Part shown: positions 4,743 to 52,708 of the stretch, piece after piece | Layout of the letters: each line of letters opens with the position of its first letter | Position numbering within the stretch: position 1 is the stretch's first letter | Origin: a virus | Direction: 5' to 3' (one strand) | DNA length: 55,431 nt | Virus record (IMG/VR): IMGVR_UViG_3300007523_000015 | Location: 1-55,431 of that record | Translations under genes and position numbers: made by a program | Notes under the pieces: model-generated | What the model saw: the letters and a program-made list of their open reading frames with translations, nothing else | What the model was told of the DNA's origin: nothing | Databases searched by the model: none

Positions 4743-4750
4743 TATTTATC
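4743..4750 (-). promoter_or_regulatory. T4-type late promoter GATAAATA
   Basis: GATAAATA on the minus strand; its G is the last base of the TAG stop of the gp41 C-terminal fragment. It lies 25 bases before the start of the gene at 4718 and would drive the five-gene unit down to 544. Confidence 0.6.
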
Positions 4751-5280
4751 TATTTTTTCTTCAGAAAAGACCTTAACGAGGCAGCACCTTCTAACGGGTC
4801 TACTTTCATGCTCGGCTTAGTCATAGACATGATCTCACCGGATAATGGGTCTATCTTTTGAGCAGTTTTTACCACACTATTCTTCTTCAGTTGATCATAA
4901 ATGTTCTTAGTTGTTGCCATAGTTGCATTATCATCACCCTCTTCCAAGTCTGTGATTCTTAAACTCTTTGTATTGAACATTAAGTCTACTTTCGAACCAA
5001 CACCCGAACTAGAACGCGTCTTCATAAATTGAATTTGGTAACGACCACTTTCTTTCATTGCTGCACTTGTAAAAATACCGACAACGTTATCTGCTGTATT
5101 AACTTTAGAAATACCGCCTGCAATGTGACTTGGGTCGAATTCGATCTCTTCATATGACGAATTGTGTGTAAGAACATCATTAGCAAAGAATAAATGGTCA
5201 CCGGTGGTGGTGATATCTATTGTATCTATTTCACCTATATATTCTATTTCTACAATTTCGTCTTCAAATATTGCTTTCAT
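4750..5280 (-). CDS. gp41: split intein C-half fused to gp41 helicase C-terminal part
   Basis: 176 residues. Residues 1-40 are a C-terminal intein half: MKAIFEDEIVEIEYIGEID, then block F (TTGDHLFFANDVL) and the terminal His-Asn (block G). Residue 41 is the +1 serine of the C-extein, which begins SSYEEIEFDPSH and continues as the DnaB-family C-terminal region. Protein trans-splicing with the half at 6577-7869 would rebuild a gp41 helicase of about 476 residues, close to T4 gp41. The layout and sequence resemble the gp41-1 class of split inteins first found in marine metagenomes. The start overlaps the end of the endonuclease gene by 17 bases. Confidence 0.92.
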   Translation of the reverse strand: MKAIFEDEIVEIEYIGEIDTIDITTTGDHLFFANDVLTHNSSYEEIEFDPSHIAGGISKVNTADNVVGIFTSAAMKESGRYQIQFMKTRSSSGVGSKVDLMFNTKSLRITDLEEGDDNATMATTKNIYDQLKKNSVVKTAQKIDPLSGEIMSMTKPSMKVDPLEGAASLRSFLKKK

Positions 5281-6544
5281 TTAAGAACTCCACGCATTCT
5301 GTTATTGTTTGATGTTTATGTTTTACATAGTCCGCCGACCATACTATTTTAATCATGTATCCTAATTCCTGTAAAATACTTAGTCTGATGCGATCCTCTT
5401 CCCAGATCACAGATGAAGTAATCCCCCTTCTCCTCGGATTAGGTGTATCCCGGGGTGCATATATTGACGGGTTAGCATGATAGACATCTCCATAAAATTC
5501 TATTATCCGATTATTATATATCAGATCGGGCTTGATAAAGTGCCGTTTATATTTTCTTTTGGTCTCGTCATCTAGCACAATTGCTGTTTCATTCTCACCA
5601 TAACAAATGGCCCCATTAATAAATACCGAAATATAATCAAACATTTCTGTAGAAATTTTAGATCTAGATCTTGTAGATTTACACGAATTTGCTAAATTAT
5701 CTATTTTCTTTTTAAACAATTTCTTACCTTCTACCTCGCCGTATTTTCCTACAAATGCATCCTCTGTTCCCTTAAATGCTACTCGTGCCCCATTTATATA
5801 TGCTGTGGTTATATCGTTGGACATTTTTGTTATATATTTGAGATAGCTGGTAGTACCGTCGACTTCACCGTGCCTCGAAATAAACGATTCTATCGATGTG
5901 TTGTTCTTAACTTCCTTACACCGTTGACGACCTTCCACATCCCCCAATTCATCTATATATCGTTGACGAGATACCTTGTAACGTTGATTTTTTAGTTTAT
6001 TATAATATACCTCTGAGCCCTTCTCCTTACCATACTTGATAATAAAGAATTCTTCATTGTATTTGGCAAAATTGTATCCATCGATGTGCTTCTGTGCATA
6101 AGATGCTGCACGTTTTATTAAATATGCTTGCCATTTTTGTCTACCTAAAATTTCACCATATCTTTTTATATAATTGCTCTCGGACGCGCCTCGATTTGAT
6201 AATAATTCGTTTGTTCTCTCCACACCATATTTACTAATGTAGTCTGCTCGTGTACGGGCTGATTTAATACATTTTTCCTTAAATCGCCTATACCCTTCTT
6301 TTAATCCATACCTATAATAAAAGAATTTTTTTGATGATGAATCTTTTCCCAATAGAAGTATTTTCGATATACGCTTGCTGAGCGACGAAAACGATACATT
6401 ATATTCCTTTAAAGTCCGGATATACCCGACTACCCGGCTTGCCGACATTTTCCTAGGATTAAATAATTCCTCAGCAACAATTATCTGCTGTTTTTCAAAA
6501 TCAGTAAACCCAATAGGCAAGAGTTTTGATAAATATTTCGACAT
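5264..6544 (-). CDS. Vsr-like (EDxHD-type) homing endonuclease between the gp41 halves
   Basis: 426 residues from the ATG at 6544, which has an AGAGGA site 8 bases upstream; an in-frame TTG 27 bases earlier is less likely. The body holds several copies of a repeat with a K/R-Y-G-E-x-x-G core (for example ISKYGVERT, IKRYGEILG, IIKYGKEKG, VGKYGEVEG), probably DNA-binding. The C-terminal 100 residues form the nuclease: KPDLIYNNRIIEFYGDVYHA, then W-x-x-D-x-x-R and a GYMIKIVW strand, as in Vsr-like endonucleases. It separates the two split-intein halves, the 'fractured gene' arrangement. A late promoter lies 34 bases upstream. Confidence 0.88.
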   Translation of the reverse strand: MSKYLSKLLPIGFTDFEKQQIIVAEELFNPRKMSASRVVGYIRTLKEYNVSFSSLSKRISKILLLGKDSSSKKFFYYRYGLKEGYRRFKEKCIKSARTRADYISKYGVERTNELLSNRGASESNYIKRYGEILGRQKWQAYLIKRAASYAQKHIDGYNFAKYNEEFFIIKYGKEKGSEVYYNKLKNQRYKVSRQRYIDELGDVEGRQRCKEVKNNTSIESFISRHGEVDGTTSYLKYITKMSNDITTAYINGARVAFKGTEDAFVGKYGEVEGKKLFKKKIDNLANSCKSTRSRSKISTEMFDYISVFINGAICYGENETAIVLDDETKRKYKRHFIKPDLIYNNRIIEFYGDVYHANPSIYAPRDTPNPRRRGITSSVIWEEDRIRLSILQELGYMIKIVWSADYVKHKHQTITECVEFLNESNI

Positions 6545-6576
6545 GTAATTACATCCTCTGTTTAGTTGCAATGCAC

Positions 6577-7869
6577 TTATTTATCTCTTACATACAAGAT
6601 TGACCCCATAGCGAGGCCAGATTCTATACTACATGCCTGGGCTGTAGTTGGGAATATATGAGAACCCGAACAAATAATCTCCTTTCCGGATTTTGTCTTT
6701 ATCTTAAACACTTTTTGTTTCGAATGCCATTTGTCTATAACTGTATTATATACGCCGTCTTTAGACAGGATCTTATCACCTATATTAACATCTTTCAATC
6801 GCACGGTGCCATTTGTTTCAGAAATAATGTTTGTGTTAGGGTGCAGGCAACGGTTCAACTGTGAAGCTGAAACTGTAACAGTCTGTAGTTCCACTGCCAG
6901 GTTACGTAATTCTTCTGTTACATATTTGTCCTTAACAAACAAGTTCTCTGCAGAAATCTTCTTACTCATTGGCATCATTAAATCTAAGTAGTCAACTAAG
7001 ATTGCATCTACTTTTCTTCCCGAATGAATTTCATATTCCTTAATGAATGCTCGTATATCGTTCGACGTACATCCATTGGGAAGTTGCTTAACCCGCAATG
7101 AACCGCCACTCTTTTGCTGCGATGCCCTGACCTTAATGTGAACGTCGTCGATGTTACGCATAACTTCTCGAGTTTCATATCCAGTATGCATTGCATCAAT
7201 ACGCATTGAACAAAGTTTTTCACTAAGTTCTAATGTTAAGTATACTACATTAAATCCAGCCTGGGCCCAATTAACTGCAAGGTTTTGCAAGAAAAGGGAT
7301 TTTCCTGCACCTGATTGTCCTGCAAAGATGGTTATTTCGCCTTTATTAAAGCCGCCATATAGTTTCTCATCGACTGTCTTCCACCCTGTAGAAACTTGTC
7401 CCTTGCCCTCTCTGATCGCCTCGAGACGCTCTTTGGGGTTAGCATAGTAATCTGTTCCCAAATCTTTAACCAGCGCGATCTGTACCGCCGCTTTGATAGA
7501 TGTTTCAACCTCGCCATATCTCCCCTCATCCAATAACTCAGGTGATGCCAATATTGCATCACGCAAAGATTTATATCTACAAAAAAGTTCTATTTCTTTT
7601 AAAAACCATCTATCCTCTTTTGCTGCTACCTCTGGAATAAGTTCAATATTTTTACCCGTAAGTGACCTGACCTGCTCAATAGCCGGCAATGTTGAATAAT
7701 CTTTAAAATGAGAAATAATAATACTAACAACGTCTTTATTTTGCTTATTGTCGAAAAAATTAGCATCTAATATACCGGAACACCTTACAAACAATTCATG
7801 ATTACTCATCATAAATTGTATAAACAACGTTTCTATATCAGAATTGTATTCTTTAATTTCACTTTCCAT
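6577..7869 (-). CDS. gp41: gp41 replicative helicase N-terminal part with split intein N-half
   Basis: 430 residues from the ATG at 7869 (AAGG upstream; the preceding TTG is in frame but less likely). The N-extein (about 340 residues) has the DnaB/gp41 RecA-like core: Walker A GQSGAGKS, Walker [11 protein letters not shown], and motif H4 ending ASQLNR. The intein half starts at the next Cys ([10 protein letters not shown]) and has block A and block B ([11 protein letters not shown]), then stops after 90 residues. Insertion is directly after QLNR, a highly conserved active-site motif. The protein unwinds DNA 5'-3' on the lagging strand with gp61. The upstream GIY-YIG gene overlaps its start by about 11 bases. 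Confidence 0.93.
6578..6585 (-). promoter_or_regulatory. T4-type late promoter GATAAATA before the intein endonuclease
   Basis: GATAAATA on the minus strand, embedded in the end of the gp41 N-half gene (AGA GAT AAA TAA). The endonuclease ATG lies 34 bases downstream, so the endonuclease may be expressed late, separately from gp41. Confidence 0.6.
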
Positions 7870-8737
7870 CAATCTTATCCTTATATTTCTTAATTACAGA
7901 TTCTGATATTTTCTTTTTAGATTCTAAGGAATGATTTTTCCCTGACATACCAGTAACTACCCTTTTTCCAGATTTCCATTCTTCCATTAATCTCTCAGAG
8001 ATTGCAAATTTTTCTTTTGCTGTTTTAGGTGGCAATTTATTTCCTGCATTGGCCTTTCCTATTTTTTCTTTTCTATCATCCGACATTGGTCCTCGCCCTA
8101 ATATCCATCCATTGCTTATATAAGAATTTAATTCATCGAGGCATACCTTTTTTATTATGTCATCTTTTATTATGTATTTCTTACCAGATGGTAACTTGCC
8201 TTTTACCCACCCATCTGATATAAATTTGTCTAGCAAAACCGGATCAATCTTTTTATATTCTATACCGTTGTTTACTGCTATTTTACCTTTTTGTGATTTA
8301 CTCATCCTATCTTTTGTTTCATCGGACCATTTACATCCTGCAGTAGTTGGAATTTTTGTTTTACTTTTTCTTTCTAGCCGTTCTTGTTCGGATAAACTTA
8401 TATAATAGTCCTTTGCAGATTGAGATAATTTTTTAGATGTTTCCTCTGTTGTTATTCTCCCAGCACCCCCTTCTCCGCCGCCAGTTCTGTTCAATAAAAT
8501 TCCGGTCCCGCGGTCTTTTCTTCCCCACCATTTAATATATCTGCGCTCTAATGCAAAAGCACCTACCTCCGATAAATTGTTTTCTAATATAATAATGTAT
8601 GATCTGTTTTTCGGAACAGGGATATTCTTATGGGTACTAAACGCACGGCTGCCGTGACCTTTTCCTATATAATATGGTGTCCCGATTTTTGCTGTAGCAG
8701 AATCTCTGCAACGAATATAGGCATAAATATAAAACAT
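7859..8737 (-). CDS. GIY-YIG homing endonuclease between gp61 and gp41
   Basis: 292 residues. GIY-YIG nuclease at the N-terminus (IYAYIRC ... [12 protein letters not shown]), with the catalytic Glu probably in [11 protein letters not shown] and the following conserved [11 protein letters not shown]. The C-terminal part has NUMOD-like DNA-binding segments ([29 protein letters not shown]). A free-standing gene of this type in an intergenic spacer of the replisome genes is typical of T4-like phages (Seg family logic: cut the same site in a phage lacking the gene). A GATAAATA motif sits only 5 bases before the ATG. Confidence 0.88.
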
Positions 8738-8769: not shown

Positions 8770-9837
8770 TTAATATTTTCGAATTCTATTCCTTATATTT
8801 TGATCGAGTGCCCACGCAACATCAATCTTTGTTGATCCGGTTACAATTGACGAAATAATAGAATGAGTTGTTAATAATCTTCCGTATTTTTCCGCCGCGG
8901 CTGCTGCATCTTTGATATCCATTCCCCATTTAGGAAATGATACTGACCAATTATTGTCAATTGCTACTTTTACTAAGTCCCAGCCCTTCTTATCTCGGTC
9001 TGGGCAAACTATAATTTCTTTTTGTAGTCTATTTATGATGTCTACTTTGGACTGGCCCATTTCGCCTAAGTTGCTTATACCGTCAACTGTCCATGCATCG
9101 AGGACACCCTCATTAACAATGACATATTTACGCAACCATGCCTGCTGGTGGTCAAGATTATAGACAAAGTCTGTGGGAGATTGTTGGTAATATTTCGGTA
9201 TATCCTTGCCATCTGTGTCGTAGCATAGTCTAGACGTGAATCCTACTATTTTTTGCTTGTAATAATATGGAACTATAAAACGCTGATTTAGATTAAAATC
9301 TGTGCTGGGTGACCAATAGAACTCAGATAAATTGTGGATATTCCTATTTAATACATATTCTGCAACTTTCAGAAAATTTGGATCATCTAATCCGTGTTCC
9401 AACCATTCGGATATAGGTAACGAACCTTCTGGCAGATCCATTGGTTTCCATTTCTGGAACAAATCCCTGAATTTCTTTTCTGGATCTACTAACGTTGTTG
9501 TCTCACCTTCTCTTATACTTTGTATTTGATTCTTCTGCTTAAATATTTCAAACTTCAGTTGTTCAATTAATTTTTCAGCAATATTGATTTGCTTAAGAAA
9601 GAATTTAAAGTTATTGGATAGATCTTCGCCTTCTTTGAATGAAGCTGAGAACCCACAGTTAAAACAGTTTAACGCGATTGTTTGCGGATTAAATTGTATT
9701 CCAAATCTGTGACGTGTGTCTTTACCATGCCCCTGTGTATGACACAACGGACAATTTCTTTTATTCCATTCCTTAGGTGCTTTTTTCAGGGGACCTATGT
9801 TAGATAAAATTGCTTCTTTAATAATATCGGCTATCAT
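8770..9837 (-). CDS. gp61: gp61 DNA primase
   Basis: 355 residues. An N-terminal zinc-binding motif (CPLCHTQGHG ... CFNCGF, residues about 28-60) is followed by a linker and a TOPRIM core: VIVNEGVLDAW near residue 245 and IIVCPDRDKKG near 280, giving the Glu and Asp-x-Asp metal ligands. This is the T4 gp61/DnaG architecture; it lays down RNA primers for lagging-strand synthesis with gp41, whose N-half is the next replication gene downstream. A TTGATT-17-TATAAT promoter ends 6 bases before the ATG, so the transcript may have almost no leader. Confidence 0.93.
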   Translation of the reverse strand: MIADIIKEAILSNIGPLKKAPKEWNKRNCPLCHTQGHGKDTRHRFGIQFNPQTIALNCFNCGFSASFKEGEDLSNNFKFFLKQINIAEKLIEQLKFEIFKQKNQIQSIREGETTTLVDPEKKFRDLFQKWKPMDLPEGSLPISEWLEHGLDDPNFLKVAEYVLNRNIHNLSEFYWSPSTDFNLNQRFIVPYYYKQKIVGFTSRLCYDTDGKDIPKYYQQSPTDFVYNLDHQQAWLRKYVIVNEGVLDAWTVDGISNLGEMGQSKVDIINRLQKEIIVCPDRDKKGWDLVKVAIDNNWSVSFPKWGMDIKDAAAAAEKYGRLLTTHSIISSIVTGSTKIDVAWALDQNIRNRIRKY

Positions 9838-9909: not shown

Positions 9910-10923
9910 TTAAAATTTAAAATAATTCTTATAAGAGTTCCACTGCCAGCCCCGTTTAATGTTCGGTTCTGCTTCCGGCCATCTGCCTTTAATTACATCT
10001 TTGGCATAATCATAGGCAGCATCGGGATGTTTCATTATATAAGGTTCTGCTTCCGGCCATCTTCCCTTAATTACATCTCGGGCATAAGCATAGGCAGCAT
10101 AGGGATGTTTCATTATATAAGGTTCTGCTTCCGGCCACCGTCCTCTAATCACATTCGTAGCATATTCTGATAACCGACCCGAGTCATTTTCTAATAATAA
10201 TGATTCGGCTTCCGGCCATCTTCCCTTAATTACATCTTTAGCATACAAATATGCTGTCCTTTCGTTTTTCAATATGATCGGCTCTGCCTTCGGCCACCGT
10301 CCTCTAATCACATTCTTAGCATATTCGTATGCTTTCATCGGATCTTTCAATATCTTTTGTTCTTCCCTTGAAGATAATTTCTGTGGATTTGGATTTTGTC
10401 TCCTATATTCTATATATTCTTTTCCGGTCATCAATTCTTTAGGTTTGTCCTTTATGAGCACATTATTATTGCCGACACCAATACTAGCTGTCCATAAATT
10501 ATCTAGCGAAGAGACTATAACTCGCGGATCAAGTAATAGTGGTTTATATTTACCTATATCGATGTCATTTATATTTTCGGGTGGGACAATTATTGATATT
10601 TTTGTAATATATTTATTTGCATTTTCGATTGTTCCAGTTACATATTCTTCGTATTCAGTTGCCTGGTTTGGTCCTTTTCCGCTGTTATAATCTAAATCTA
10701 TCTGGGGTTTAAGTCTTTTTCCTATATCTCTGTACAATAAATTCTGATTTATAGACAGAACAACATTTCCAAATCTCGGTGCTACTCTTATATCTCTGGA
10801 CAAACTTACACCATGGTTTCCACTTATTTTATTCGACTTTATAATCCCTAATGCTCCACTTAAATCTGTTCCGTGGTATAAATCAGCAGATCTACTTTCC
10901 ATAATGAATTCAAATAATCTCAT
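9910..10923 (-). CDS. ADP-ribosyltransferase-like protein with capsid-targeting-like N-terminus and C-terminal repeats
   Basis: 337 residues in three parts. (1) Residues 1-10, MRLFEFIMES, resemble the capsid-targeting peptides of T4 internal proteins, with an I-M-E cleavage-like site. (2) Residues about 13-190 look like an ADP-ribosyltransferase fold: LYHGTD near 15-20, VSLSRD near 39-44, FGNVVLSI near 51, and an E-Y-E-E near 90-93 that could supply the catalytic Glu. (3) Residues 194-324 are five 26-27-residue repeats with the core VI[KR]GRWPEAEP. T4 Alt is a packaged, injected ADP-ribosyltransferase, so a similar role is inferred. Activity is unproven; the fold call rests on a few short motifs. 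Confidence 0.6.
   Translation of the reverse strand: MRLFEFIMESRSADLYHGTDLSGALGIIKSNKISGNHGVSLSRDIRVAPRFGNVVLSINQNLLYRDIGKRLKPQIDLDYNSGKGPNQATEYEEYVTGTIENANKYITKISIIVPPENINDIDIGKYKPLLLDPRVIVSSLDNLWTASIGVGNNNVLIKDKPKELMTGKEYIEYRRQNPNPQKLSSREEQKILKDPMKAYEYAKNVIRGRWPKAEPIILKNERTAYLYAKDVIKGRWPEAESLLLENDSGRLSEYATNVIRGRWPEAEPYIMKHPYAAYAYARDVIKGRWPEAEPYIMKHPDAAYDYAKDVIKGRWPEAEPNIKRGWQWNSYKNYFKF
9952..10344 (-). repeat. five tandem 78-81 bp coding repeats (GRWPEAE repeats)
   Basis: The five units encode residues 194-219, 220-245, 246-272, 273-298 and 299-324 of the ART-like protein. Each has the pattern A-Y-x-Y-A-[KR]-[DN]-V-I-[KR]-G-R-W-P-[EK]-A-E-P-x-I. The last two are nearly identical at DNA level, suggesting recent duplication or gene conversion. 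The units look helical. Confidence 0.85.
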
Positions 10924-10926
10924 AGA

Positions 10927-11799
10927 TTAAACTCTTACGATAAGTTTTTCTAATACGCCTGGATCTAATACTTCTTTACTAGGAATGTATCTAAACTTTA
11001 ACCACATGAAGTTTGCAGCAAATGTCCAGGCTTGTGTTCCTGTATATCCAAGAAACTCTATGTCTTGTGACGTTGTCGATGGGTAAATCTTAAACCATCG
11101 TGCTGCACTCGGTGTTGGATTTGGGGATTCTTCTAATGTTCCCCAAATTTCAACAATGCCTGTAAAGTTTATTGTATAGGTCGAGAATGAATGCACAGAA
11201 TTAATGTGATTTAATACTCTAGCACCGGCGATTCGGCCAGTGTAGAAACTGTCAACCACTGGACCAAATACCGGAATATTCATATCTGGTGTCCAGTCTT
11301 TTGGCAAATATGTTGTGCTAGGCTTTGGTGCTTTAAATGCTTGCTCGGTAATCTCTATCTCCATTGCTACGTTATCATCTATATCACTAAACAAAGGACG
11401 CTCAACAAACTCGCCTTGCATCCCTGATACAAAATCCTGTGTTCTAATAAGAACCATGTTATAAAGTCCGGCATGTAACGATGCAATGTCCCCTCCATCC
11501 AACTCTAATGTAATAATACCCTTAGCTGGACCTAAGCGGCATAGCTTCTCTAATACTACTCGCCTGTTATCAGGATCCATAATACGAGCATATACTTGCT
11601 GATTGCACGAAATATCTAATGGTGCTCTATCAGGGCCTAATACTCTGAAGATTGCTTTATTATCTATCCCTTTATGGATTTTAATTGGGTTTTTGGACAT
11701 GGGACCGGTATCCTTATATGAAGAGAAAGTATCATCTACCATTAGCAATTGCCTTACATGGTCATATAAATACAATTTATTAAATGTTATATCAGACAT
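10927..11799 (-). CDS. virion structural protein, possibly baseplate or tail associated
   Basis: 290 residues from the ATG at 11799, whose product starts MSDITFNKLYLYDHVRQ, an N-terminus like those of exo-T4 virion proteins. The frame stays open to another ATG at 11877 (316 residues); neither start has a clear ribosome binding site, so the choice is uncertain. The middle (IFRVLGPDRAPLDISCNQQV, then a run of strands) resembles the N-terminal beta domain of baseplate-type proteins. The gene stops 3 bases before the ART-like gene. A late-promoter motif is at 11956-11963. No exact T4 counterpart is recognised. Confidence 0.6.
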   Translation of the reverse strand: MSDITFNKLYLYDHVRQLLMVDDTFSSYKDTGPMSKNPIKIHKGIDNKAIFRVLGPDRAPLDISCNQQVYARIMDPDNRRVVLEKLCRLGPAKGIITLELDGGDIASLHAGLYNMVLIRTQDFVSGMQGEFVERPLFSDIDDNVAMEIEITEQAFKAPKPSTTYLPKDWTPDMNIPVFGPVVDSFYTGRIAGARVLNHINSVHSFSTYTINFTGIVEIWGTLEESPNPTPSAARWFKIYPSTTSQDIEFLGYTGTQAWTFAANFMWLKFRYIPSKEVLDPGVLEKLIVRV

Positions 11800-11955
11800 T
11801 ATGATCTGCGACAGGGTAAAATATGATATTTCTCTGTATAGCCCTGTGGTTGTGTTCTTTCTTTTGCAAGTTTGCATAAGGTTATATATTCATCCACATA
11901 TGCAGACCCGTTTGATATATCAGAAATAATTGTTAAATACTTGTTCATTATTCTA

Positions 11956-15114: not shown

Positions 15115-15780
15115 ATGATATTTATCGACAACAAATACACTAAGTGTTATTTTAACATCATTGCTATAGCAAAAGCAAGAATTTCGATTACGGGTTATGT
15201 AGAAAAACATCATATTTTGCCACGATCACTCGGTGGAAATAATACTACATCTAATTTAGTGCAATTAACAGCACGAGAACATTTTATATGCCACGCATTA
15301 CTAACTAAAATGACATCTGGGGATGATAGAAGAAAAATGATTTTTGCTTCTAATATGATGTTGTGTGGTAAAAATAGATATGTCCCGTCTGGTAAAATCT
15401 ATCAGATTGTAAAGGAAGATTTTGCCAAAATGTCTTCTATATTACATACTGGAAAATCTATATCAGATAAACAGAAATTATTAATTTCGGAAGCAAATAA
15501 GAATAAAATTGTTTCAGATGAAACATGTATTAAAATTTCTAATAGTAAGATTGGAAAGAAAAGAAAATTGTTTACCGAATCTGCCAAAGAAAATATGAGT
15601 AAATGCAAATTAGGTGAAAAGAATGCAAATTTTGGAAAAACTTTCACGGCTTGCACAATAGAAAAAATGAAGTTATCTGCACAAAATCGGTCTAAATTAA
15701 AATGCCTCTGCGGAAAGGAATGTTCGCCATCAAATTTCAAAAGATGGCATGGAGATAACTGCAAGTTAATTAAATCCTAG
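15115..15780 (+). CDS. HNH homing endonuclease
   Basis: 221 residues. The HNH core is at residues about 31-70: VEKHHILPRSLGGNNTTSN followed by LTAREHFICHALL, the form found in T4-like MobE/Seg-type genes. After it come NUMOD3-like lysine-rich segments (CIKISNSKIGKK, AKENMSKCKLG) and a C-terminal cysteine pair (KCLCGKECSPSNF). It is inserted on the plus strand between two minus-strand genes and overlaps the 3' end of the 111-codon gene by 15 bases. Own late promoter and ribosome binding site are present, so it looks intact. Confidence 0.88.
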   Translation: MIFIDNKYTKCYFNIIAIAKARISITGYVEKHHILPRSLGGNNTTSNLVQLTAREHFICHALLTKMTSGDDRRKMIFASNMMLCGKNRYVPSGKIYQIVKEDFAKMSSILHTGKSISDKQKLLISEANKNKIVSDETCIKISNSKIGKKRKLFTESAKENMSKCKLGEKNANFGKTFTACTIEKMKLSAQNRSKLKCLCGKECSPSNFKRWHGDNCKLIKS

Positions 15781-16101
15781 TGTTTCTTTTCTATATACTT
15801 CCCAGTCGGCATCTAACTTCTTCGGATCTCGTGCAGGACCATATTTGCCGTATGATATCGACCGCTGGCTCACTCCGCATTTGATCAGGTAATCGTAGAG
15901 CATATTCTCGAAACCAAGGTGTCTATATGACAAAAATGTAATGCTTGTCGCAGTTTCTGATGCATCGTTATATGTCAATGTTATCTTCGTCTGATACATG
16001 CCGGGGGATCGTTCCGATATAATAACATCTAATTCATTGGCTGTCATGAATATTTCTATCAGATCCTTATATCCCCACGATATATTTGTTTCTACTATCA
16101 T
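15766..16101 (-). CDS. small conserved hypothetical protein
   Basis: 111 residues, beginning MIVETNISWGYKDLIEIF and ending DWEVYRKETLGFN. No motif recognised. It starts where the UvsW C-terminal gene stops (one-base overlap) and its 3' end overlaps the convergent HNH gene by 15 bases, so the HNH insertion point is at the end of this gene. Confidence 0.55.
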   Translation of the reverse strand: MIVETNISWGYKDLIEIFMTANELDVIISERSPGMYQTKITLTYNDASETATSITFLSYRHLGFENMLYDYLIKCGVSQRSISYGKYGPARDPKKLDADWEVYRKETLGFN

Positions 16102-16946
16102 TAATAAGTTACCTTTTTAACAGAATACGGATACTCTGCCTCCGCATAAAATTTCTTTCTCTTTGTCAAGTGTCGTTTGGAGAATTTGCAGTTCGAGCAT
16201 ACATCATAAACATTTACAAAGTCCTTATCTGGTGCAACACGAATGCCACGTCCGATACTTTGTATAACCCTTACAAAACTCTTACCAGATTCAAATAATA
16301 CAAGATTAAAAATACGAACAATATTAATGCCCGTAGATGCTACACCATATGTAGCAATAATGACCTTCCCGTCTATTTCTTGAACTTCTTTATATTCGTC
16401 CTTACGGTCCTTTGACTTCATCTGTCCAGAAACAAATACCGAATCTGGTATAAGCAATTGTAACATCTTTCCCGTCTCGATTCTATCTACCAGCACAAGA
16501 GTATTACCCGACTCGGACATAATCTCTACTGACTGTGCAAGAAACTGTAGTCTTGCCTGATTAGTTGTTAACCATTTGAGTTCTGATTGATAATCACTGA
16601 AGGCTGCTGCTTTTAATAAATCCTGCAACTGCCAGACATTCACATGCAATTGTGCAAGTATGCCTTTGTCCTGAAGTTCTTTTGTATTAATTTTGCCAAG
16701 CATCGAGCCAATACATGCCAATATAGACATTTTTTCATGGTCTTCTTCTGGCATTGTTCCGGTTAGTCCCCACCGTATCGGGGCGTTTGCTAACGGGCCA
16801 GATAAGATTTTACGAAGCACATCGGCTTTCGCCTTGTGGCAATTCTGAACTACTGCATCATTAACGATAAAGTTATGGTCATCTTTTATACCTAATGTAT
16901 ATACTTCGGGCGGCTTATCTATTTCTGTTCTTTTTATAAGTTTCAT
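16101..16946 (-). CDS. uvsW: split intein C-half fused to UvsW helicase C-terminal part
   Basis: 281 residues. Residues 1-35 are an intein C-half (MKLIKRTEIDKPPEVYTLGI, then DDHNFIVNDAVVQN) ending in Asn. The C-extein starts with Cys: CHKAKADVLRKIL, the continuation of the DECH motif II. Then come motif III-like WGLTGTMP, motif V ATYGVASTGINI and motif VI QSIGRGIR, the second RecA lobe of a superfamily 2 helicase. Trans-splicing with the half at 17013-18038 would give an intact UvsW of about 487 residues, near T4 UvsW. No endonuclease gene lies in the 66-base gap between the halves. Confidence 0.93.
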   Translation of the reverse strand: MKLIKRTEIDKPPEVYTLGIKDDHNFIVNDAVVQNCHKAKADVLRKILSGPLANAPIRWGLTGTMPEEDHEKMSILACIGSMLGKINTKELQDKGILAQLHVNVWQLQDLLKAAAFSDYQSELKWLTTNQARLQFLAQSVEIMSESGNTLVLVDRIETGKMLQLLIPDSVFVSGQMKSKDRKDEYKEVQEIDGKVIIATYGVASTGINIVRIFNLVLFESGKSFVRVIQSIGRGIRVAPDKDFVNVYDVCSNCKFSKRHLTKRKKFYAEAEYPYSVKKVTY

Positions 16947-17012
16947 AGTTTCTTTATCTTATTCTGAGTTTTGATATCAAATAACAACATGCTGATCCCA
17001 TTCTCTACGATC

Positions 17013-18038
17013 TTATGTATTTCGGTTTATGCTTTTTATATCATCTGCAAGAGACAATTGATCTGCTCGTACCCAACCTCGTTGAGTTAAAAACTTATGA
17101 TTTCCTGTAACTTTTATTTTCTTATTATTATCGAACTCTAATTTATACATTTTTTCATTTGACGATTTTGTCAGATTTTTATAGACTGCATCAACGGTAT
17201 CTTCTTTGAATATATTCTCCATTTCTGAATAGTTTATTATCCTATCCCCGACTTTTATTTCCGATATTTTCAAATAGCCCAATGATGTCAAGACTAATGC
17301 ATCTGGGTGAAAACATTCGTCCACCATAACGCAAACTACTCCTTCGAAGAAATCGTTTATATCGATCTCTAAATCGGTTTCTTTCGAACGCTTTGCTAGG
17401 CTTTCCAGACTTTGCCATGTACATATAGTGTGAGTTTTTAAATACTCTTTCCTATCTCCATAAAATACGCCTACATCTAATCCAAGATTGATATAATCTT
17501 CTTCTGTTTGCGTTACTAAATCCTTAGTCGGCACAATCACTATGCTGCGACCATACTGCTGAACCTTATGGCTTAAAATCGCCGTAATTAGCGTTTTTCC
17601 CGAGCCGGTCGGGCAAATATTTACACCGGTTAAGTTGTTCAAATACGAATTAATGCATTCGGTTTGGTGTTCCTTGATAACAATCGGTTGTCCGGCAAGT
17701 GTATGTCCTTTGGGCCAGGTGATATGTGAATAGCTATCTGCAACTACTTCGTCGAAGACAAAGTCGTGTGTCGTATCTCTAAGATCATCTATTTCTATTT
17801 CATATCCCTGTGCCTGAACAATGGGCAACAATGTATCTAATAGATTAAGATATGTGCGCGCTCCTACATCACAGAAAGAGATCTTACCGTTCCATCTTCC
17901 GAGCCGATAAGCTGGAGTATATCGTGCATGCTCCATAAAGAATTCTAAAGACTGTGTCATTTTTCGTCGTGTGACGATATCAAGCCCCTCGAACTTTACG
18001 TTACATTCATCTTGTATGATTAGTTTTGTTGTTGCCAT
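17013..18038 (-). CDS. uvsW: UvsW helicase N-terminal part with split intein N-half
   Basis: 341 residues. The N-extein (241 residues) has a substrate-grip N-domain and the first RecA lobe: Walker A NICPTGSGKT, motif Ia VPTKDLV, and motif II broken after VMVDE. The next residue is Cys 1 of the intein (CFHPDALVLTSLGYLKISE), with block B near VTGNHKFLTQRG, ending after 100 residues. UvsW is the T4 DNA/RNA helicase for branch migration and late control of origin R-loops. The insertion lies inside the DECH box, so the unspliced protein should be inactive. Neighbours UvsY and UvsX confirm the recombination context. Confidence 0.93.
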   Translation of the reverse strand: MATTKLIIQDECNVKFEGLDIVTRRKMTQSLEFFMEHARYTPAYRLGRWNGKISFCDVGARTYLNLLDTLLPIVQAQGYEIEIDDLRDTTHDFVFDEVVADSYSHITWPKGHTLAGQPIVIKEHQTECINSYLNNLTGVNICPTGSGKTLITAILSHKVQQYGRSIVIVPTKDLVTQTEEDYINLGLDVGVFYGDRKEYLKTHTICTWQSLESLAKRSKETDLEIDINDFFEGVVCVMVDECFHPDALVLTSLGYLKISEIKVGDRIINYSEMENIFKEDTVDAVYKNLTKSSNEKMYKLEFDNNKKIKVTGNHKFLTQRGWVRADQLSLADDIKSINRNT

Positions 18039-23887: not shown

Positions 23888-24553
23888 TTAAACCTTTATG
23901 TTTCTTTTATTTAGTTCTTGTCTTAGTGCAAGTAACTTATTGTCTGTCCTGGAAATAGCATTCCTTATCTCACCTGCTTGTTTCTTGTCTATTTGTCCTA
24001 AGACATCGTTTATTATGTTCTCGATCTCGGAATATTGTTTTCCAACATTCGGGTCTTTTACAGCCTTCGTATTTTGTCTAGGTTCATCTTCGTCGTCTTC
24101 GCCCGACTTGCTTTCTAATTCGTCTATTTTATTTTCATAATTATTAAGTGCAGTAACTGATGCGTTAACTGCTGATAATAATCTTGTATTCTTTGTAGTC
24201 TTTGCTATTCTTTGCAAAATATCTAACAGTATATTTTGTACATTCGAAAATTTAGAATCATTAGTTCCTAAGAATCCCTGTAGTTCTGATCTTACCTGCG
24301 GTGATAGCGACTTTGCAAAGTTATACAATGCAGATTTTAGATTGCTAAAATAGACATCCTGATACCACGTACTTTTTTGGCTACCAGATACTAGTTTAAA
24401 TCCGTCTAAATTACCCTTATTATTAAACATCTTTTCTGCCATAATAGACAGTTTATGATAAAGCTGAGGTAACTCCGTTGTCAATACATCTACAATGTTC
24501 TTTTGTGATGCCTCAGGCGATACATCTTCTCGAATTATTTCATTTATTCTCAT
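23888..24553 (-). CDS. putative internal virion protein with capsid-targeting-like N-terminus
   Basis: 221 residues. The N-terminus MRINEIIREDVSPEA fits the pattern M-R-x-x-E-[LIF] and then an I-R-E site like those cut by the T4 prohead protease. The rest is helical with an acidic loop (ESKSGEDDEDEPRQ) and a C-terminal coiled-coil-like end. Function unknown. It follows the large terminase gene; a GATAAATA sits 5 bases before its ATG. Packaging into the head is an inference from the N-terminus alone. Confidence 0.6.
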   Translation of the reverse strand: MRINEIIREDVSPEASQKNIVDVLTTELPQLYHKLSIMAEKMFNNKGNLDGFKLVSGSQKSTWYQDVYFSNLKSALYNFAKSLSPQVRSELQGFLGTNDSKFSNVQNILLDILQRIAKTTKNTRLLSAVNASVTALNNYENKIDELESKSGEDDEDEPRQNTKAVKDPNVGKQYSEIENIINDVLGQIDKKQAGEIRNAISRTDNKLLALRQELNKRNIKV

Positions 24554-24568: not shown

Positions 24569-26143
24569 TTAAATGCAGATTGGCATCGGAGAATCATATG
24601 ACGTTTCATCTGACATCGATATATTTGTGTTAATGGCAGCTTGCGATTTATCGTCCCATGTCGATATATAGTCAGTCATCCTAATTGCAAGAATCATAGC
24701 CATAATTAGGTCATCTGTTTGGCCGATTCGAGCTTCGAAAGTGTTACCACGAGAAACAAATACTTTTAACTCTGATAATATTCCTCTAGAATTTAATTTC
24801 ATCTTCAGCGATTCAATTAAGAATTTCATTTTTGCACAACATTCTAATTTAGACTTATTTGTAGTAACAAACCCTGCTCGGCGGCCTGTTTTTCCTTGTA
24901 ACCTATTTTTTGGATCATGCAGCATGGTGCCTGGGAAATTCTCTTCCCCAGTATCTCTGATAACTACTAATGCAGCTTCGCCCAATGTATTGCTCTCTAC
25001 TGACCAATAGATTTCCGGCCGGCCGGCAGCGGCAATTTCCTCAAGTATGTCTTTCATAGTCTTAACTTGTTGCTCCACCGGCGCTCTGTTGTCGCTCCAT
25101 TCGGCTACCTGAACTAATGACGGCAATTCTAATACCTGGATCGCTGCATTGTCACCGCCTGTTCCCATTGATGGGTCAAGTGCAACAACATATGTCATAT
25201 CTTGTCTTATATTAGCATACCATCGAACTTGCCCAGATTTTTTAATAGGCTGGGTAGAAGTAAGCTGCGATAACTTTACAGGATTAATTAGTGTTTCTTC
25301 GAATGTAATGAACTGGCACCGGTGTTCGCGCAAGAATCTATCTTCACCGAGGGACGCTAATTGTTCGTCGGCCCATGCTTCGTCACGATCCGGATGGGCT
25401 TCCCACGTCGCCATATATGGCTTGAATCCATTTGTCCCTGTAACCGTTTCATTGCCACGGTTGTCCACTAACTTATTGGCGCCAAACCAAATGTCAGCAA
25501 ATTGGTCTTCATCTGTGTTAGGGGTAGACGTAATGATGCACTTGCCGCCAGTTGACAAAGTAGGTGCAAGTGATGTCCAGAATTCCTTAGCAATGTTTGC
25601 ATCCACGAATGCAAACTCGTCAAGGTAGACAAGTGATAACGACATTCCGCGTCCGGTAGTTTCTGTAGTTGTAGTTGCTGTTATCTTAGACCCATTATCG
25701 AATGCAATTGAACGCTTATTGTATGTTGTGACACCTGCTCGAATGTGATCCGGGACAGATTCGTACGCAAAGCGGACTCGGTCCATGATATCCTGGGCGC
25801 TATCATATTTGTACGATGTCACTAATATTTGTGCATCGTCGGTAAACATTGCATACCATAACAAGTACCCGGCTGCAACTGCGGTTTTCCCCATTTGACG
25901 AGAAACCATGTTTATGGATTTCTTAAAATGCGTATATGATTCAATTAAATCAAGCTGAAACTCATACGGAGTAAATTTCTGTCTCCCCTTTGTAGAGTGT
26001 TGAACATACATAAAATTAGATATGAAATATAACGGTCCCGTGTCGGGATCCATACATGCCTTCAATTCATCTATTTGTTCTTTAGTATAAGAAACCTTTT
26101 TATAGGCTCGCTTAACAAGAGTATCATCTTGATAAATGGCCAT
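24569..26143 (-). CDS. gp17: gp17 terminase large subunit
   Basis: 524 residues. ATPase domain with the adenine motif region (KFTPYEFQLDLIE), Walker A-like SRQMGKTAVAAG near residue 83 and Walker B LVYLDEFAFVD near 170, coupling motif TSTPN near 207. The nuclease domain has VVALDPSMGTGGDNAA with the first catalytic Asp near 320 and a late FEARIGQTDDLIMA with the last acidic residues. Size and motifs match T4 gp17, which packages and cuts concatemeric DNA. It overlaps the next gene's stop by one base; gp16 is two genes upstream. Confidence 0.95.
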   Translation of the reverse strand: MAIYQDDTLVKRAYKKVSYTKEQIDELKACMDPDTGPLYFISNFMYVQHSTKGRQKFTPYEFQLDLIESYTHFKKSINMVSRQMGKTAVAAGYLLWYAMFTDDAQILVTSYKYDSAQDIMDRVRFAYESVPDHIRAGVTTYNKRSIAFDNGSKITATTTTETTGRGMSLSLVYLDEFAFVDANIAKEFWTSLAPTLSTGGKCIITSTPNTDEDQFADIWFGANKLVDNRGNETVTGTNGFKPYMATWEAHPDRDEAWADEQLASLGEDRFLREHRCQFITFEETLINPVKLSQLTSTQPIKKSGQVRWYANIRQDMTYVVALDPSMGTGGDNAAIQVLELPSLVQVAEWSDNRAPVEQQVKTMKDILEEIAAAGRPEIYWSVESNTLGEAALVVIRDTGEENFPGTMLHDPKNRLQGKTGRRAGFVTTNKSKLECCAKMKFLIESLKMKLNSRGILSELKVFVSRGNTFEARIGQTDDLIMAMILAIRMTDYISTWDDKSQAAINTNISMSDETSYDSPMPICI

Positions 26144-27465
26144 TATTTCTTAGTAACTTTCGATTCCTTCAAGAAGTTCCTGTATGCATATACAAGTTCT
26201 TTATGGGTCTCAGTAACTTCCATTTTCTTCTGTTCTGGATTATCGCCGTGACGGGCACCAGATGGTCCAACAGATTTAACTACCGGGCCGTCTGCACCGT
26301 TAGGGAAATAGTCGGCGCCATCGGCGTATTTTTCTTCGCCGTATCCATTTTGCAGGTCTTCACTTACATTTCTGCCTGGAACGTGTGACCTTTCATAATC
26401 GGTCTCGTCCTCGTCCTCGTCCTCGTCCTCGTACCCTTCGTCATCCAGGCCGTCAGTTCTTTCACCTGCTTCTTGATCTCGATTGTACATATCTGCGCGG
26501 TGGCCTGCTGGTGTGTCGGCGCCCATCATACCATTTTCGCCTTGACGCATACTATAATCTGTATAATCTGCAGAATCTAATTTATCACGAAATTCTTCAT
26601 ATGATATTTCCCCTGCTGATAGCATTGCTGTTAATTCTTCGACATATCGAGTATCGATTTCCTCATTTACAATGCGTCCAGTGCCAGGAACTGCGGTAAT
26701 TCCTTCCATTAGATTAATCAATTTTCTCATATCGTTCATATCATTTATGCCTTCCATATCGCAGGCCGTGGCTCCCTCATTTACTCTGGCCATTTTAGTT
26801 GCTGCCGTTGCGACACCTTTGGTGCGCTTTGTTAGGTGTCTTTGCAGGAAATCTTCCTCATCGGCCCAATCTGCTTCCTTGTCTGGCATTTCTTTTCTGA
26901 AATCTCTTGCATTCTGAATGCTGACATTTGTGTGCCGCATATCATCTGCTGCACCTTTCATATAGCCACTAATTGTCTCGGGTGACATTTCTTCCAAGCC
27001 TGGATGTAATTGATCGAATTCTATATCATCCAGATCATCTTCTCTGACATCATCATCGCCCCAGCCCTCGGCCGGCATAAACACTCCGTCATCTTCTATT
27101 CCGAATTCAATTGTATGAATATTCGGGTCAAACCACCGTTTGGTCTTCATATAGCGTTTTATATCAGGGTATTCATCTTTTGTGTATGGGCCAGACATTA
27201 TTTTATAATCGTCACCGTCCACAACATAGTAAGAAGGGACAGTATCGTTGTCGTCGCCTAACTCTATGCCTTCCTCAGTGGGCTGATCCTGAGATGCATC
27301 AAATTCACCATAGGCCTCATCTCGGCCGACAGTTCCAGAAGTTTGCATATCTGATTCAGTGCCCCTGCCTGCCGATGGGCCGATGCCAGGAATAGCACTA
27401 ACCCCTTCGGTTAGTTGCTTACTAGCTGGTAGTCCAGCAAGTTGTCTCATTCGTTGTAAATTCAT
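26143..27465 (-). CDS. acidic virion/prohead protein with duplicated N-terminal motif
   Basis: 440 residues, very acidic. Residues 6-29 (MRQLAGLPASKQLTEG, then VSAIPGIG) recur in altered form at 246-263 (MRKLINLMEGITAVPGTG). Both contain an [LM]-x-E-G step resembling the T4 prohead-protease site. An ED-repeat lies near residues 345-355 and the C-terminus is basic (KESKVTKK). I infer a prohead core or internal protein by analogy; there is no clear T4 homologue. It lies between gp17 and the 223-codon gene with overlapping ends. Confidence 0.6.
   Translation of the reverse strand: MNLQRMRQLAGLPASKQLTEGVSAIPGIGPSAGRGTESDMQTSGTVGRDEAYGEFDASQDQPTEEGIELGDDNDTVPSYYVVDGDDYKIMSGPYTKDEYPDIKRYMKTKRWFDPNIHTIEFGIEDDGVFMPAEGWGDDDVREDDLDDIEFDQLHPGLEEMSPETISGYMKGAADDMRHTNVSIQNARDFRKEMPDKEADWADEEDFLQRHLTKRTKGVATAATKMARVNEGATACDMEGINDMNDMRKLINLMEGITAVPGTGRIVNEEIDTRYVEELTAMLSAGEISYEEFRDKLDSADYTDYSMRQGENGMMGADTPAGHRADMYNRDQEAGERTDGLDDEGYEDEDEDEDETDYERSHVPGRNVSEDLQNGYGEEKYADGADYFPNGADGPVVKSVGPSGARHGDNPEQKKMEVTETHKELVYAYRNFLKESKVTKK
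26404..26431 (-). repeat. short hexanucleotide tandem repeat (GAGGAC)
   Basis: Four to five tandem copies of the unit TCGTCC (plus strand) inside the acidic 440-codon gene, encoding alternating Glu-Asp. Such tracts are prone to slippage that changes the length of the acidic run. Confidence 0.75.
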
Positions 27466-28155: not shown

Positions 28156-28662
28156 CTATTTATCAGAGTTTTCGGTTTTACTCGACACTATGTGACGCAA
28201 TAACTCGTTTCTGTCAAATTCAGTACCTTGCTGACCTTTTGCAGGGCCACTGCCATTTTCGAAATCAATTTGCTCTGATCGAATCCGTCTTAGTTGCAAT
28301 TCGATCATTTTTAATTTTCTATCAGCTTTGGCATTTTTAGCCTCTAATGCTGTCTTCAGCATTTGGCCGGCAACTTCGTAAATTTTCCCAGCATGTATGT
28401 CAGGCACATTACCACCTAACGCAATTAGGTCGTTGAATGTGTCAACTGCTTTTTTCGCAATAGAGTCCATTTCGCCGTCATGGGCATCTAAACCTATCAC
28501 AGTTGGCAACGAATAGTCAACTTTTTCCGCAGTAGTTAATGCATTATAAATTTCCTTTGCATCCACCATTAACTGCTCTCTTGTCATAACCGGCTTATCT
28601 TCTTCTGGTTCAGATGATTCCGCAGGCGGAATATTAAAAAAATCTTCCATTTTGCGAGTCAA
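28156..28662 (-). CDS. gp16: gp16 terminase small subunit
   Basis: 168 residues. The C-terminal two thirds (DTFNDLIALGGNVPD, AGKIYEVAGQMLKTALEAKN, LKMIELQLRRIRSEQ) match the central oligomerisation region of T4 gp16. The chosen start is TTG at 28662 because a strong AAGGAGG lies 7-8 bases upstream; an ATG four codons later lacks a properly spaced site. gp16 binds DNA and stimulates the gp17 packaging motor. The HNH gene upstream overlaps by 4 bases. Confidence 0.85.
   Translation of the reverse strand: MTRKMEDFFNIPPAESSEPEEDKPVMTREQLMVDAKEIYNALTTAEKVDYSLPTVIGLDAHDGEMDSIAKKAVDTFNDLIALGGNVPDIHAGKIYEVAGQMLKTALEAKNAKADRKLKMIELQLRRIRSEQIDFENGSGPAKGQQGTEFDRNELLRHIVSSKTENSDK
28157..28164 (-). promoter_or_regulatory. 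T4-type late promoter GATAAATA
   Basis: GATAAATA on the minus strand, overlapping the TAG stop of gp16, 24 bases before the 223-codon gene; it would drive that gene, the acidic protein and gp17. Confidence 0.55.
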
Positions 28663-29330
28663 AGTATACCCTCCTTCTTTTTATTTTGTGCTGTGCGACG
28701 GGCGGCGGACCAAGGCCTATTTTTCCGTGCCTTTCCCATTTCGATAAGATGTGTGTTATTTCTTTTCGACGCTGCAATTGATTTATTCCTGCATTCTTCT
28801 TTAGAATCTTTCTTCCCTGTGCTCGATGCACTTATTTTATCTGCTCGGGCCTGTGTGTATACGACAGGATTACAACAAGATTTTGCCATACGTTCGGACA
28901 TCTCATTCTTAGAGAGTTTAGCCAAGGTGGCCGACATGCCCGCACTAATCTTTTTCTTTGATTCTGCAGAGTGAGATATTAAATATGCAGGATGACCTGT
29001 TTGTGCTTCAATAAACATTGACTTACCGATTTCATACATTCTGGATGTAGGTTTATATCGTCGTAAATTACTGTTACACATTCTCCAAAATGCATATTTC
29101 ATCTTCTTTCTGAATTCGTCTACGACAGATTTTGTTAGAAGTAAATGGCAAATATAATGCTCTTTAGCCGTTAGTGAGACTATATTCTTTTTAGCATTCG
29201 ATCCACCCATCGATTTAGGAATAATATGGTGATTTTCGGAATATCCCAAAGAGATGCGATTTCTGGCGCCATCGATTATATTAAAATACCACACTGAATA
29301 TTTGTTATTCAGGAAGATTTTTTTAGTCAC
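28659..29330 (-). CDS. HNH homing endonuclease before gp16
   Basis: 223 residues. HNH core at residues about 31-67: SENHHIIPKSMGGSNAKKN then LTAKEHYICHLLL. After it come NUMOD3-like motifs (SAESKKKISAGMSATL) and a basic Ser/Lys-rich tail. It is close to the HNH genes at 15115 and to the remnant at 18225, so these are one family at three sites. It overlaps gp16 by 4 bases and carries the ribosome binding site for the gp16 TTG start within its 3' end. Confidence 0.88.
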   Translation of the reverse strand: MTKKIFLNNKYSVWYFNIIDGARNRISLGYSENHHIIPKSMGGSNAKKNIVSLTAKEHYICHLLLTKSVVDEFRKKMKYAFWRMCNSNLRRYKPTSRMYEIGKSMFIEAQTGHPAYLISHSAESKKKISAGMSATLAKLSKNEMSERMAKSCCNPVVYTQARADKISASSTGKKDSKEECRNKSIAASKRNNTHLIEMGKARKNRPWSAARRTAQNKKKEGIL

Positions 29331-31212: not shown

Positions 31213-31649
31213 CCTTTACCTTTCGGGTTGTTAAATATATTCCCCTCTGTCATTACTCTGAAATTCATCCCATGCTGTTTCGCAAACACTTGTGCTGCTG
31301 CCCATTTGAATGTATTCAACGCGACTGCTGCCTTAGCCTTTGGACTTTTTGCCTGTTCCAGGAAAGTCTCTTTTGCTGGCTTTACTTCGATAATCTCTGC
31401 TTTCTGATTACCTTTAGCGTCTACATAAGTTACTACAAAATCTGGCACGTACACTGTATATTTACCTGTAAAAGGATTTCGATACGGGATTTTCAAGGAT
31501 TCACTTGCCCAACTAGTAAAACTTGGATTTGAGTCAAATAGAACCATGACTTTATGTTCCCACGATGATCGGAATATTATAGGATAAGTACCCACATATT
31601 TGCCAGGATTTATGGGTTTATACTGACCCTGGACATATGATCGGGCCAT
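31209..31649 (-). CDS. gp4: gp4 head completion protein
   Basis: 146 residues. YKPINPGKYVGTYPIIFRSS, WEHKVMVLFDSNPSFTSWAS and ESLKIPYRNP with YVPDFVVTY follow the T4 gp4 (gp50/65) pattern of a restriction-nuclease-like fold; PDF and IIEVKPAKE are consistent with a PD-(D/E)XK site. gp4 acts in head completion after DNA packaging. It overlaps the kinase-like gene by one base and the broken endonuclease by 4 bases. Confidence 0.88.
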   Translation of the reverse strand: MARSYVQGQYKPINPGKYVGTYPIIFRSSWEHKVMVLFDSNPSFTSWASESLKIPYRNPFTGKYTVYVPDFVVTYVDAKGNQKAEIIEVKPAKETFLEQAKSPKAKAAVALNTFKWAAAQVFAKQHGMNFRVMTEGNIFNNPKGKG

Positions 31650-32296
31650 TATGCTATTGGATCTGTAAATACAAGTTGAGGCATATTTCCCGTTATACGC
31701 ATCATTATATTTTTGTCGTATATGTCGTTCATGAACTTAGAATCCCTTAAAATTCCTATTATTAGTCCCAATGCCTGTTTTAATTGTTTATCTTTTATTA
31801 AATAAGTATTTTTTCCAGCAACAATGTAAGCCATTTTATACACAATGTCTTCTAATGAAGGTTCTTCTGCTGGTTCATCTAAGAACATCTTTTCCCACAT
31901 CGCCGAAGCCATTTCCCTTGGTATACGCTCCGATTGCAATGGTATAAGTCTTTCTATGTTTGCAACATATGTAAATTGGTTGTTTGATTTTTTATAAACT
32001 TTGAAATCGTCTATTCTAGGAAAATAAGGATTATTTAAACCACTGTCAACAATAGCCTTTATATATGCTATATAACCATCATCTGTTAATTCTTTAAAAA
32101 TAGAATAGTTCATATTTCGTGCTATACCAGATTTAGTTACCTGATTTAATCTTTTATTTGAGTTTATCGAATAGGCAGAGCCGAATGAACCAGACCCCAA
32201 TTTATCAATATTAGATCGTCTATCCAGTCTGCGGCCGAGATCAGAGTTTGATTTTCTGTCTCTCGGGGTAAAATCTATAAGTTCCTGCAATCTCAT
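31649..32296 (-). CDS. protein-kinase-like protein with MRLQE N-terminus
   Basis: 215 residues. After MRLQELIDF comes a glycine-rich loop IDKLGSGSFGSAYSI near residues 31-45, like the kinase P-loop. Near the end, YDKNIMMRITGN could be a catalytic loop (D-x-N) and LVFTDPIA a DFG-like metal-binding Asp. A lysine of the VAIK type is not obvious (QVTKSG is a candidate). The small size suggests a reduced or inactive kinase fold. Neighbours are virion genes and the N-terminus fits the capsid-targeting-like set, so a packaged kinase-like factor is a hypothesis. Confidence 0.5.
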   Translation of the reverse strand: MRLQELIDFTPRDRKSNSDLGRRLDRRSNIDKLGSGSFGSAYSINSNKRLNQVTKSGIARNMNYSIFKELTDDGYIAYIKAIVDSGLNNPYFPRIDDFKVYKKSNNQFTYVANIERLIPLQSERIPREMASAMWEKMFLDEPAEEPSLEDIVYKMAYIVAGKNTYLIKDKQLKQALGLIIGILRDSKFMNDIYDKNIMMRITGNMPQLVFTDPIA

Positions 32297-40731: not shown

Positions 40732-40751
40732 GCCATTTTGGCTGTTTTATA

Positions 40752-40759
40752 TATTTATA
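40752..40759 (-). promoter_or_regulatory. T4 late promoter TATAAATA for gp18
   Basis: Perfect TATAAATA on the minus strand, 52 bases before the gp18 start. It overlaps the leader of the plus-strand endonuclease gene. Confidence 0.7.
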
Positions 40760-40773
40760 TGAAAGGCACTAAA

Positions 40774-51927: not shown

Positions 51928-51935
51928 CTATTTCT

Positions 51936-51988: not shown

Positions 51989-51991
51989 TTC

Positions 51992-52162: not shown

Positions 52163-52166
52163 ATTC

Positions 52167-52693: not shown

Positions 52694-52708
52694 AAAATCC
52701 TATTGTAT

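Follow-up and report, generated by a model that had tools for sequence, protein, structure and literature searches.

The question raised by this locus is what the gene at positions 9910-10923 encodes, and whether its product is an enzyme that travels in the phage head. The window, that is, the whole stretch of DNA that was analysed, is a virus record of its own with a length of 55,431 bases. Its minus strand carries at these positions an ORF of 337 aa, whose ATG at 10923 is the first start codon past the upstream stop. A sequence-only reading had proposed for it an Alt-like ADP-ribosyltransferase (ART) domain, a capsid-targeting-type N-terminus and five GRWPEAE repeats; the N-terminus MRLFEFIME-S is indeed present at the ORF start, as are all the ART-like motifs it had named, YHGTD (residues 16-20), SLSRD (residues 40-44) and EYEE (residues 90-93). 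Since the repeat recurs in loci of IMG/VR and relatives of the N-terminal domain exist at 27-41% identity, the pattern of this ORF goes beyond chance. The features discussed below are as follows.

9910-10923, minus strand: whole gene (337 aa), with leader, ART domain and five-repeat helical solenoid, as predicted.
10897-10923, minus strand: residues 1-9 (MRLFEFIME), candidate capsid-targeting leader with a predicted cleavage at E9/S10, from the L/I-x-E rule (PMC9026906), the T4 IPII/IPIII leaders and a pLDDT <50 at residues 1-10.
10480-10890, minus strand: ART-fold domain, residues about 12-148, from the predicted structure and structural comparison.
10873-10875, minus strand: H17 of YHGT, invariant in the alignment; predicted NAD-binding histidine, by the ART clade definitions.
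10795-10797, minus strand: R43 of SLSRD, invariant in the alignment.
10645-10650, minus strand: E92-E93, a pair invariant in the alignment; predicted catalytic glutamate.
9922-10371, minus strand: GRWPEAE repeat region, residues about 185-334, predicted alpha-alpha solenoid, from motif spacing and model.
10927-11877, minus strand: upstream gene, virion structural protein (phrog_14467, E 1.7e-7), homologue of PA5oct EST35_0222 (ESI-MS/MS; blastp 29%, E 3.5e-42).
8770-9837, minus strand: downstream gene, DNA primase (phrog_47, E 1.2e-24), homologue of PA5oct EST35_0223 (blastp 40.6%, E 4.3e-87).
31649-32296, minus strand: kinase-like protein starting MRLQELIDF, with similarity to the C-terminal part of the ART fusion in L044 (blastp 27%, E 3e-7).

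Profile searches of Pfam and PHROGs gave no name to the N-terminal domain. An AlphaFold2 model, built on an alignment of only six sequences, reached a pLDDT of 74.2 and a pTM of 0.72, with a well-predicted ART core and pLDDT values <50 at residues 1-10, 77-89 and 150-161. Structural comparison of the model identified Tpt1 (8tfz) as the closest solved fold (Z 9.9, rmsd 1.9 over 82 residues), then DarT (7omw; Z 7.8, rmsd 3.8 over 126 residues), with further ARTs at Z 5-6.5, namely SopF (6.5), diphtheria toxin (6.5), pertussis S1 (5.5) and PARP16 (5.3). Nearly all of the 50 structural matches listed are ARTs by name or by the class to which we take them to belong, the noted exception being CC0527 (Z 7.5). 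Foldseek returned a single PDB match with E <0.001, again Tpt1 (4.1e-4), and 19 BFVD models below the same threshold, mostly uncharacterised phage proteins, headed by one of SP-15 (2.3e-9). A protein of Atu_ph07 and a putative RNA 2'-phosphotransferase of phage PaBG are also BFVD neighbours by fold. A weak profile match among PDB sequences was likewise to Tpt1 (7kw8, E 0.53).

Relatives of the domain were found stepwise, starting with SP-15 and followed by the IMG/VR loci L039/L044, L040/L045, L041/L048 and L046; the resulting profile recognised four places in G006, a 240-kb IMG/VR record, and two in SP-15. Two matches in phage G are distant and weak (E 0.003 and 0.018). Sequence searches of annotated phages gave no convincing match except SP-15, the ART alignment found no relative in genome_contigs, and profile searches of Atu_ph07 and PA5oct with that alignment gave no match. 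In the six-sequence alignment (A5), E9, YHGT, H17, R43, E92 and E93 are invariant, among others, while the middle motif position is S in five members and R in one. The ART clades are named R-S-E, H-Y-[EDQ] and H-H-h in PMC9503650, and the first-motif histidine together with the third-motif glutamate points to the H-Y-[EDQ] clade, whose name leads one to expect Y at the middle position. The residues H17, R43 and E92/E93 would thus place the domain near H-Y-E-type ARTs. With the ART fold given by model and structural comparison, and with a histidine and a glutamate of the catalytic type conserved, we regard it as very likely that the N-terminal domain is an ART, as had been suggested. As a side observation, L045:5001-6919 contains three consecutive ORFs with YHGT/YHGG motifs and L/I-x-E leaders, the third of which shows a weak PARP match (E 0.0028, below the cut-off) and a Tpt1 match (E 0.02).

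The N-terminus was examined against the rules established for gp21, which cleaves after L/I-x-E; the first ten residues of IPIII are enough for its incorporation, with positions 4 and 7 mattering for targeting and positions 8 and 10 for processing (PMC9026906). The window protein has I-M-E at residues 7-9, in agreement with the cleavage rule. An L/I-x-E with its E at residues 8-11 is present in all seven family members with unambiguous starts (the window protein, L044, L045, L046, L048 and the two SP-15 paralogues), whose leaders are MRLFEFIME, MGSFVEYLIE, MRITELFE, MKVTTVLSLLE, MRYFNIFE, MPIHFLRE and MAIQFLRE; being homologues, the seven are not independent. L054, L055 and L056 also fit, and were left out of the count as their internal ATG starts were hand-chosen; the count also omits L034/L036, which is nearly a duplicate and is truncated by its contig end, and L041, which duplicates L048. 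Both phage G matches are without an L/I-x-E leader, and they were kept apart because of their weak E-values.

Taken alone, the leader motif is only weakly specific, and its presence only mildly unusual. Among ORFs called mechanically, and hence including spurious ones, an L/I-x-E with E at 8-11 was counted at 4-12% of starts as background (window 8/69, G006 21/355, G005 24/439, T4 1-50 kb 3/72) and at 11 of 48 starts in the T4 head regions. The pattern [EQD][FIL][ILM]xE[AS] occurs four times in the 17,033 six-residue stretches of the window ORFs, and one of the other three occurrences is the start of the neighbouring primase. The strict motif was not enriched at ORF starts of the window (4/69, against 8/321 internal methionines, p = 0.14). 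The leader motif was more frequent at starts than at internal methionines in G006 (20/355 and 23/1168, p 6e-4), in G005 (20/439 and 23/1706, p 1e-4) and in the T4 head regions (4/48 and 2/175, p 0.02), and not in T4 1-50 kb (2/72 and 8/285); a tighter form gave p 0.046 in the T4 head regions and was not significant in the window, G005, G006 or T4 1-50 kb. Within the 80-180 kb stretch of PA5oct, the strict leader was carried by 5 of 52 proteins detected by MS and by 3 of 68 undetected ones (p = 0.22). The motif was accordingly rejected as a stand-alone predictor, having failed in PA5oct and in the window. It is the family-wide conservation of L/I-x-E, combined with the gene context described below, that supports a leader of the capsid-targeting type. 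Separately, several ORFs of G006 start like a T4 leader (e.g. MKTYADILVES, MRTYIDILMES); no S77 protease was found in that record.

The five-fold repeat of about 26 residues was confirmed at the C-terminus, where [RK]WP[EK]AE motifs stand at residues 209, 235, 262, 288 and 314, at spacings of 26/27/26/26. At the DNA level Tandem Repeats Finder detected only 2.2-2.6 copies, so that some of the repeats have drifted apart in DNA with their protein pattern preserved. As a combined full-length alignment wrongly placed the ART relatives on the repeat region, a separate prediction was made for each half, and the repeat half was modelled as a compact helical solenoid with two helices per 26 residues (pLDDT 93.2, pTM 0.81). 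In comparisons with the PDB, no Foldseek match to this model fell below E 0.001 and the scores were those of alpha-solenoids in general (best Z 6.6), for which reason no named repeat family is claimed.

A search of IMG/VR yielded 34 loci, one of which, L034, was matched by the N-terminus only. No match to the repeats came from the annotated phage collection (best E 0.2), and a scan of genome_contigs with them gave one 3.8-kb MAG contig, one of 27 candidate stretches, whose repeat protein starts MTKFSAQLTE-A. The IMG/VR loci comprise 22 distinct repeat proteins with a left end, counted after ORFs open at the left contig end had been left out and identical first 60 residues merged, and with hand-chosen starts for L005-L011, L014, L015, L017 and L019. 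A domain that we label WCTA precedes the repeats in eight of the 22, and all eight, together with the window protein as a ninth, carry the strict leader, which is absent from the remaining 13. In L003 and L029 the first L/I-x-E appears only at residue 25, and 11 of the 22 have neither WCTA nor ART nor any L/I-x-E at residues 8-26. A query with a WCTA front part, 228 residues taken from L026, hits 14 phage records (11 from Pseudomonas phages), and the PA5oct homologue of this domain, EST35_0205, which starts MKLFEVFTLYE-D, is annotated as 'structural protein, ESI-MS/MS'. A role of the repeats as a targeting module is plausible, in that they are predicted to form a solenoid and are common to proteins with different front domains; that the GRWPEAE solenoid of the window protein holds the target is an even call.

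The window has PHROG matches to UvsX, a DNA helicase in two ORFs (called UvsW-type by reading, beyond the PHROG match), terminase, tail sheath and tube, rIIA and rIIB. Four tRNA genes, three for Arg (CCT, CCG, TCT) and one for Val, lie at 51852-54209. Split genes with ends that look intein-like by eye are found at 4750-7872 (helicase-like; ORFs 6577-7872, 5264-6571 and 4750-5280) and at 16101-18038 (the UvsW-type helicase). Homing-endonuclease-like ORFs occur at 34026-34925 and 35668-37227, by match to PHROG homing endonucleases, and at 15115-15780, 28659-29330, 40738-41544 and 50394-51215, by eye.

Only 3 bases separate the ART gene from the upstream gene on the same strand. Twelve chosen window proteins were compared by blastp with 120 PA5oct proteins (80-180 kb; gene 0204, cut at the border of the stretch, was left out), and seven of them had matches: 10927 with 0222, 8770 with 0223, 27462 with 0202, 22403 with 0206, 43894 with 0192, 1424 with 0228 and 26143 with 0203 (over 35 residues only). 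The ART protein, 23888, the kinase-like protein, the terminase and 2794 had no match among these 120 proteins. In PA5oct, 0222 and 0223 are adjacent, 29 bases apart, and the window ART gene stands between their homologues; it is therefore either an insertion in the window phage or a loss in PA5oct. Two further ORFs of the window are recorded here. The one at 23888-24553 (221 aa, start MRINEIIRE-D) lies directly after the terminase gene, in the place that the WCTA virion protein 0205 occupies in PA5oct. The one at 26143-27465 encodes an acidic protein of 440 aa in which the site LTE-GVSAIPGIG, near residue 20, resembles a second one, LME-GITAVPGTG. This protein may belong to the prohead core or scaffold and be a substrate of the protease; its PA5oct counterpart 0203 was detected by MS.

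A gp21-type S77 protease (PF03420) was detected in 7 of the 13 records searched and also in PA5oct, and SP-15 carries one; it was not found in the other six of the 13, i.e. the 55-kb window fragment, G004, G006, G007, G010 and G011. In L044 (IMGVR_UViG_3300020811_000172) the gene order is a portal-like gene, the gp21-type protease (PF03420, E 1.7e-21; phrog_207, E 5.4e-51), the ART fusion 6 bases on and a convergent terminase-like gene; the protease label is a profile match, and the portal and terminase labels come from reading the ORFs. The ART neighbours in L045, L046 and L048 are not clear head genes. T4 late-promoter octamers, 9 in the window against 9.45 expected and with none close upstream on the ART strand, lent no support. 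The C-terminus of the L044 fusion matches phrog_15752 (protein kinase, inhibitor of host transcription; T7 gp0.7-type) with E 5.7e-7, and it is this segment that the window protein 31649-32296 resembles. That protein has no Pfam match, and among PHROGs only a family of unknown function matches it, marginally (E 0.083); its start shows no L/I-x-E nearby; it is a possible second injected protein of the phage.

Considering these results together, we propose that the ART protein would be made late, that its first nine residues would direct it into the prohead core, and that a gp21-type prohead protease would cut it after E9. Inside the head the mature protein would lie next to the DNA until its injection at infection; once in the host, it would transfer ADP-ribose from NAD+ to a host macromolecule, while the C-terminal helical solenoid would hold the host target or an adaptor. 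From leader and context, packaging and injection are likely; the whole proposal, including the solenoid as target holder, we consider rather probable. An unpackaged intracellular ART, like T4 ModA/ModB, for which the N-terminal residues would be the mere start of the protein, would agree with a replication primase as one neighbour, with a weakly specific leader whose pattern recurs in that primase, with the lack of a significant link between motif and MS detection in PA5oct and with a window fragment without a protease gene. However, the segment before E9 varies across the seven leaders while L/I-x-E is kept, residues 1-10 are poorly predicted next to a well-predicted ART core, and the L044 gene sits within a portal-protease-terminase cluster, so this explanation appears unlikely.

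We consider it improbable that the protein is a Tpt1/KptA-type RNA 2'-phosphotransferase or another nucleic-acid ART (DarT-like), acting in RNA repair or DNA modification, even though Tpt1 and then DarT lead the structural scores, the weak PDB profile match is again to Tpt1 and the PaBG protein is a BFVD neighbour. A lobe N-terminal to the NAD-binding lobe is a defining feature of Tpt1/KptA. The match to Tpt1 spans chain residues 88-177 only and the window fold starts near residue 12, so no such lobe lies ahead in the window ART. Moreover, KptA presumably falls in the H-H-h clade, which expects a hydrophobic third motif, whereas the window family keeps its invariant glutamate pair. A DNA target of the DarT kind is conceivable. 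Tpt1/KptA and DarT are the closest solved folds, yet they are cellular enzymes or parts of toxin-antitoxin systems. Finally, an inactive ART domain in a structural or decoy protein whose function resides in the repeats would fit the 11 repeat proteins that have no enzyme-like front domain; the invariance of H17, R43, E92 and E93 at 27-41% identity argues for kept catalysis, and makes this explanation very improbable.

The preferred reading is thus of an ART, probably packaged in the head and injected, that lies outside the Alt clade and has a repeat module in common with another, probably packaged family. It would bring a subfamily of another clade than Alt's into the group of phage enzymes believed to be active at the onset of infection; the separable repeat module makes the question of the target testable, and the common leader offers a sequence-level hypothesis for injected unknowns of large T4-type phages, with PA5oct as a cultured relative. 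The domains are found in exchanged combinations, repeats with ART in the window phage, repeats with WCTA in others and ART with kinase in L044, and it is conceivable, though doubtful, that head-packaged phage proteins use the GRWPEAE solenoid as a swappable module for target recognition. If so, these phages would hold a modular arsenal of injected enzymes, in which leaders mark packaging and repeats choose the host target, and injected proteins would be predictable from leader and family together.

Phage-packaged enzymes of this sort are already known. Myoviruses are enriched in ARTs, and for about 44% of the ARTs of phages the context suggests packaging in the head (PMC9503650); ARTs are present in all three groups of jumbo phages (PMC7824862). 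Head-packaged ARTs of myoviruses being an established theme (PMC9503650), the 'new injected effector class' of the sequence-only reading was too strong a term. For the domain combination itself we found no description in the literature searched: RWPEAE does not occur and no title names the family in that literature, and 'targeting sequence' is absent as a term from PMC9503650.

Among related systems, the L044 polyprotein shares its leader type and its ART domain with the window protein (41% identity in A5), and differs in carrying, instead of repeats, a C-terminal gp0.7-like kinase and a middle region that looks ParB-like by eye (no Pfam match). SP15_243 of Bacillus phage SP-15, annotated as hypothetical, and the second SP-15 paralogue belong to the same ART subfamily, with MPIHFLRE and MAIQFLRE as their leaders, but lack GRWPEAE repeats. 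The WCTA proteins of IMG/VR phages share the repeats and the kind of leader, whereas their front domain, of unknown function, differs from the ART, and EST35_0205 is without the repeats. The T4 IPII/IPIII leader MKTYQEFIAE-A has EFI-x-E plus a small residue in common with MRLFEFIME-S; the mature parts are unrelated to the window ART by eye, and the IP stretches compared contain no ART motifs.

For T4 Alt, packaging, cleavage by gp21 and injection are described (PMC9026906, PMC9958956). Like the window protein, it is an ART encoded by a myovirus of the T4 type and carries an L/I-x-E leader at its N-terminus (start MELITELFDED). Alt, however, matches PF03496 (E 5.8e-36) and the window protein does not; no sequence relation between the two was found (hhalign probability 0.1 percent), and all aligned members of the window family have a histidine in the first motif, as opposed to the R of the Alt/VIP2 R-S-E clade. 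Alt has 682 aa, and the window ART 337 aa with a repeat solenoid. 'Alt-like' therefore holds as an analogy and not as a family assignment: the window ART stands outside Alt's family and may be like Alt in its working.
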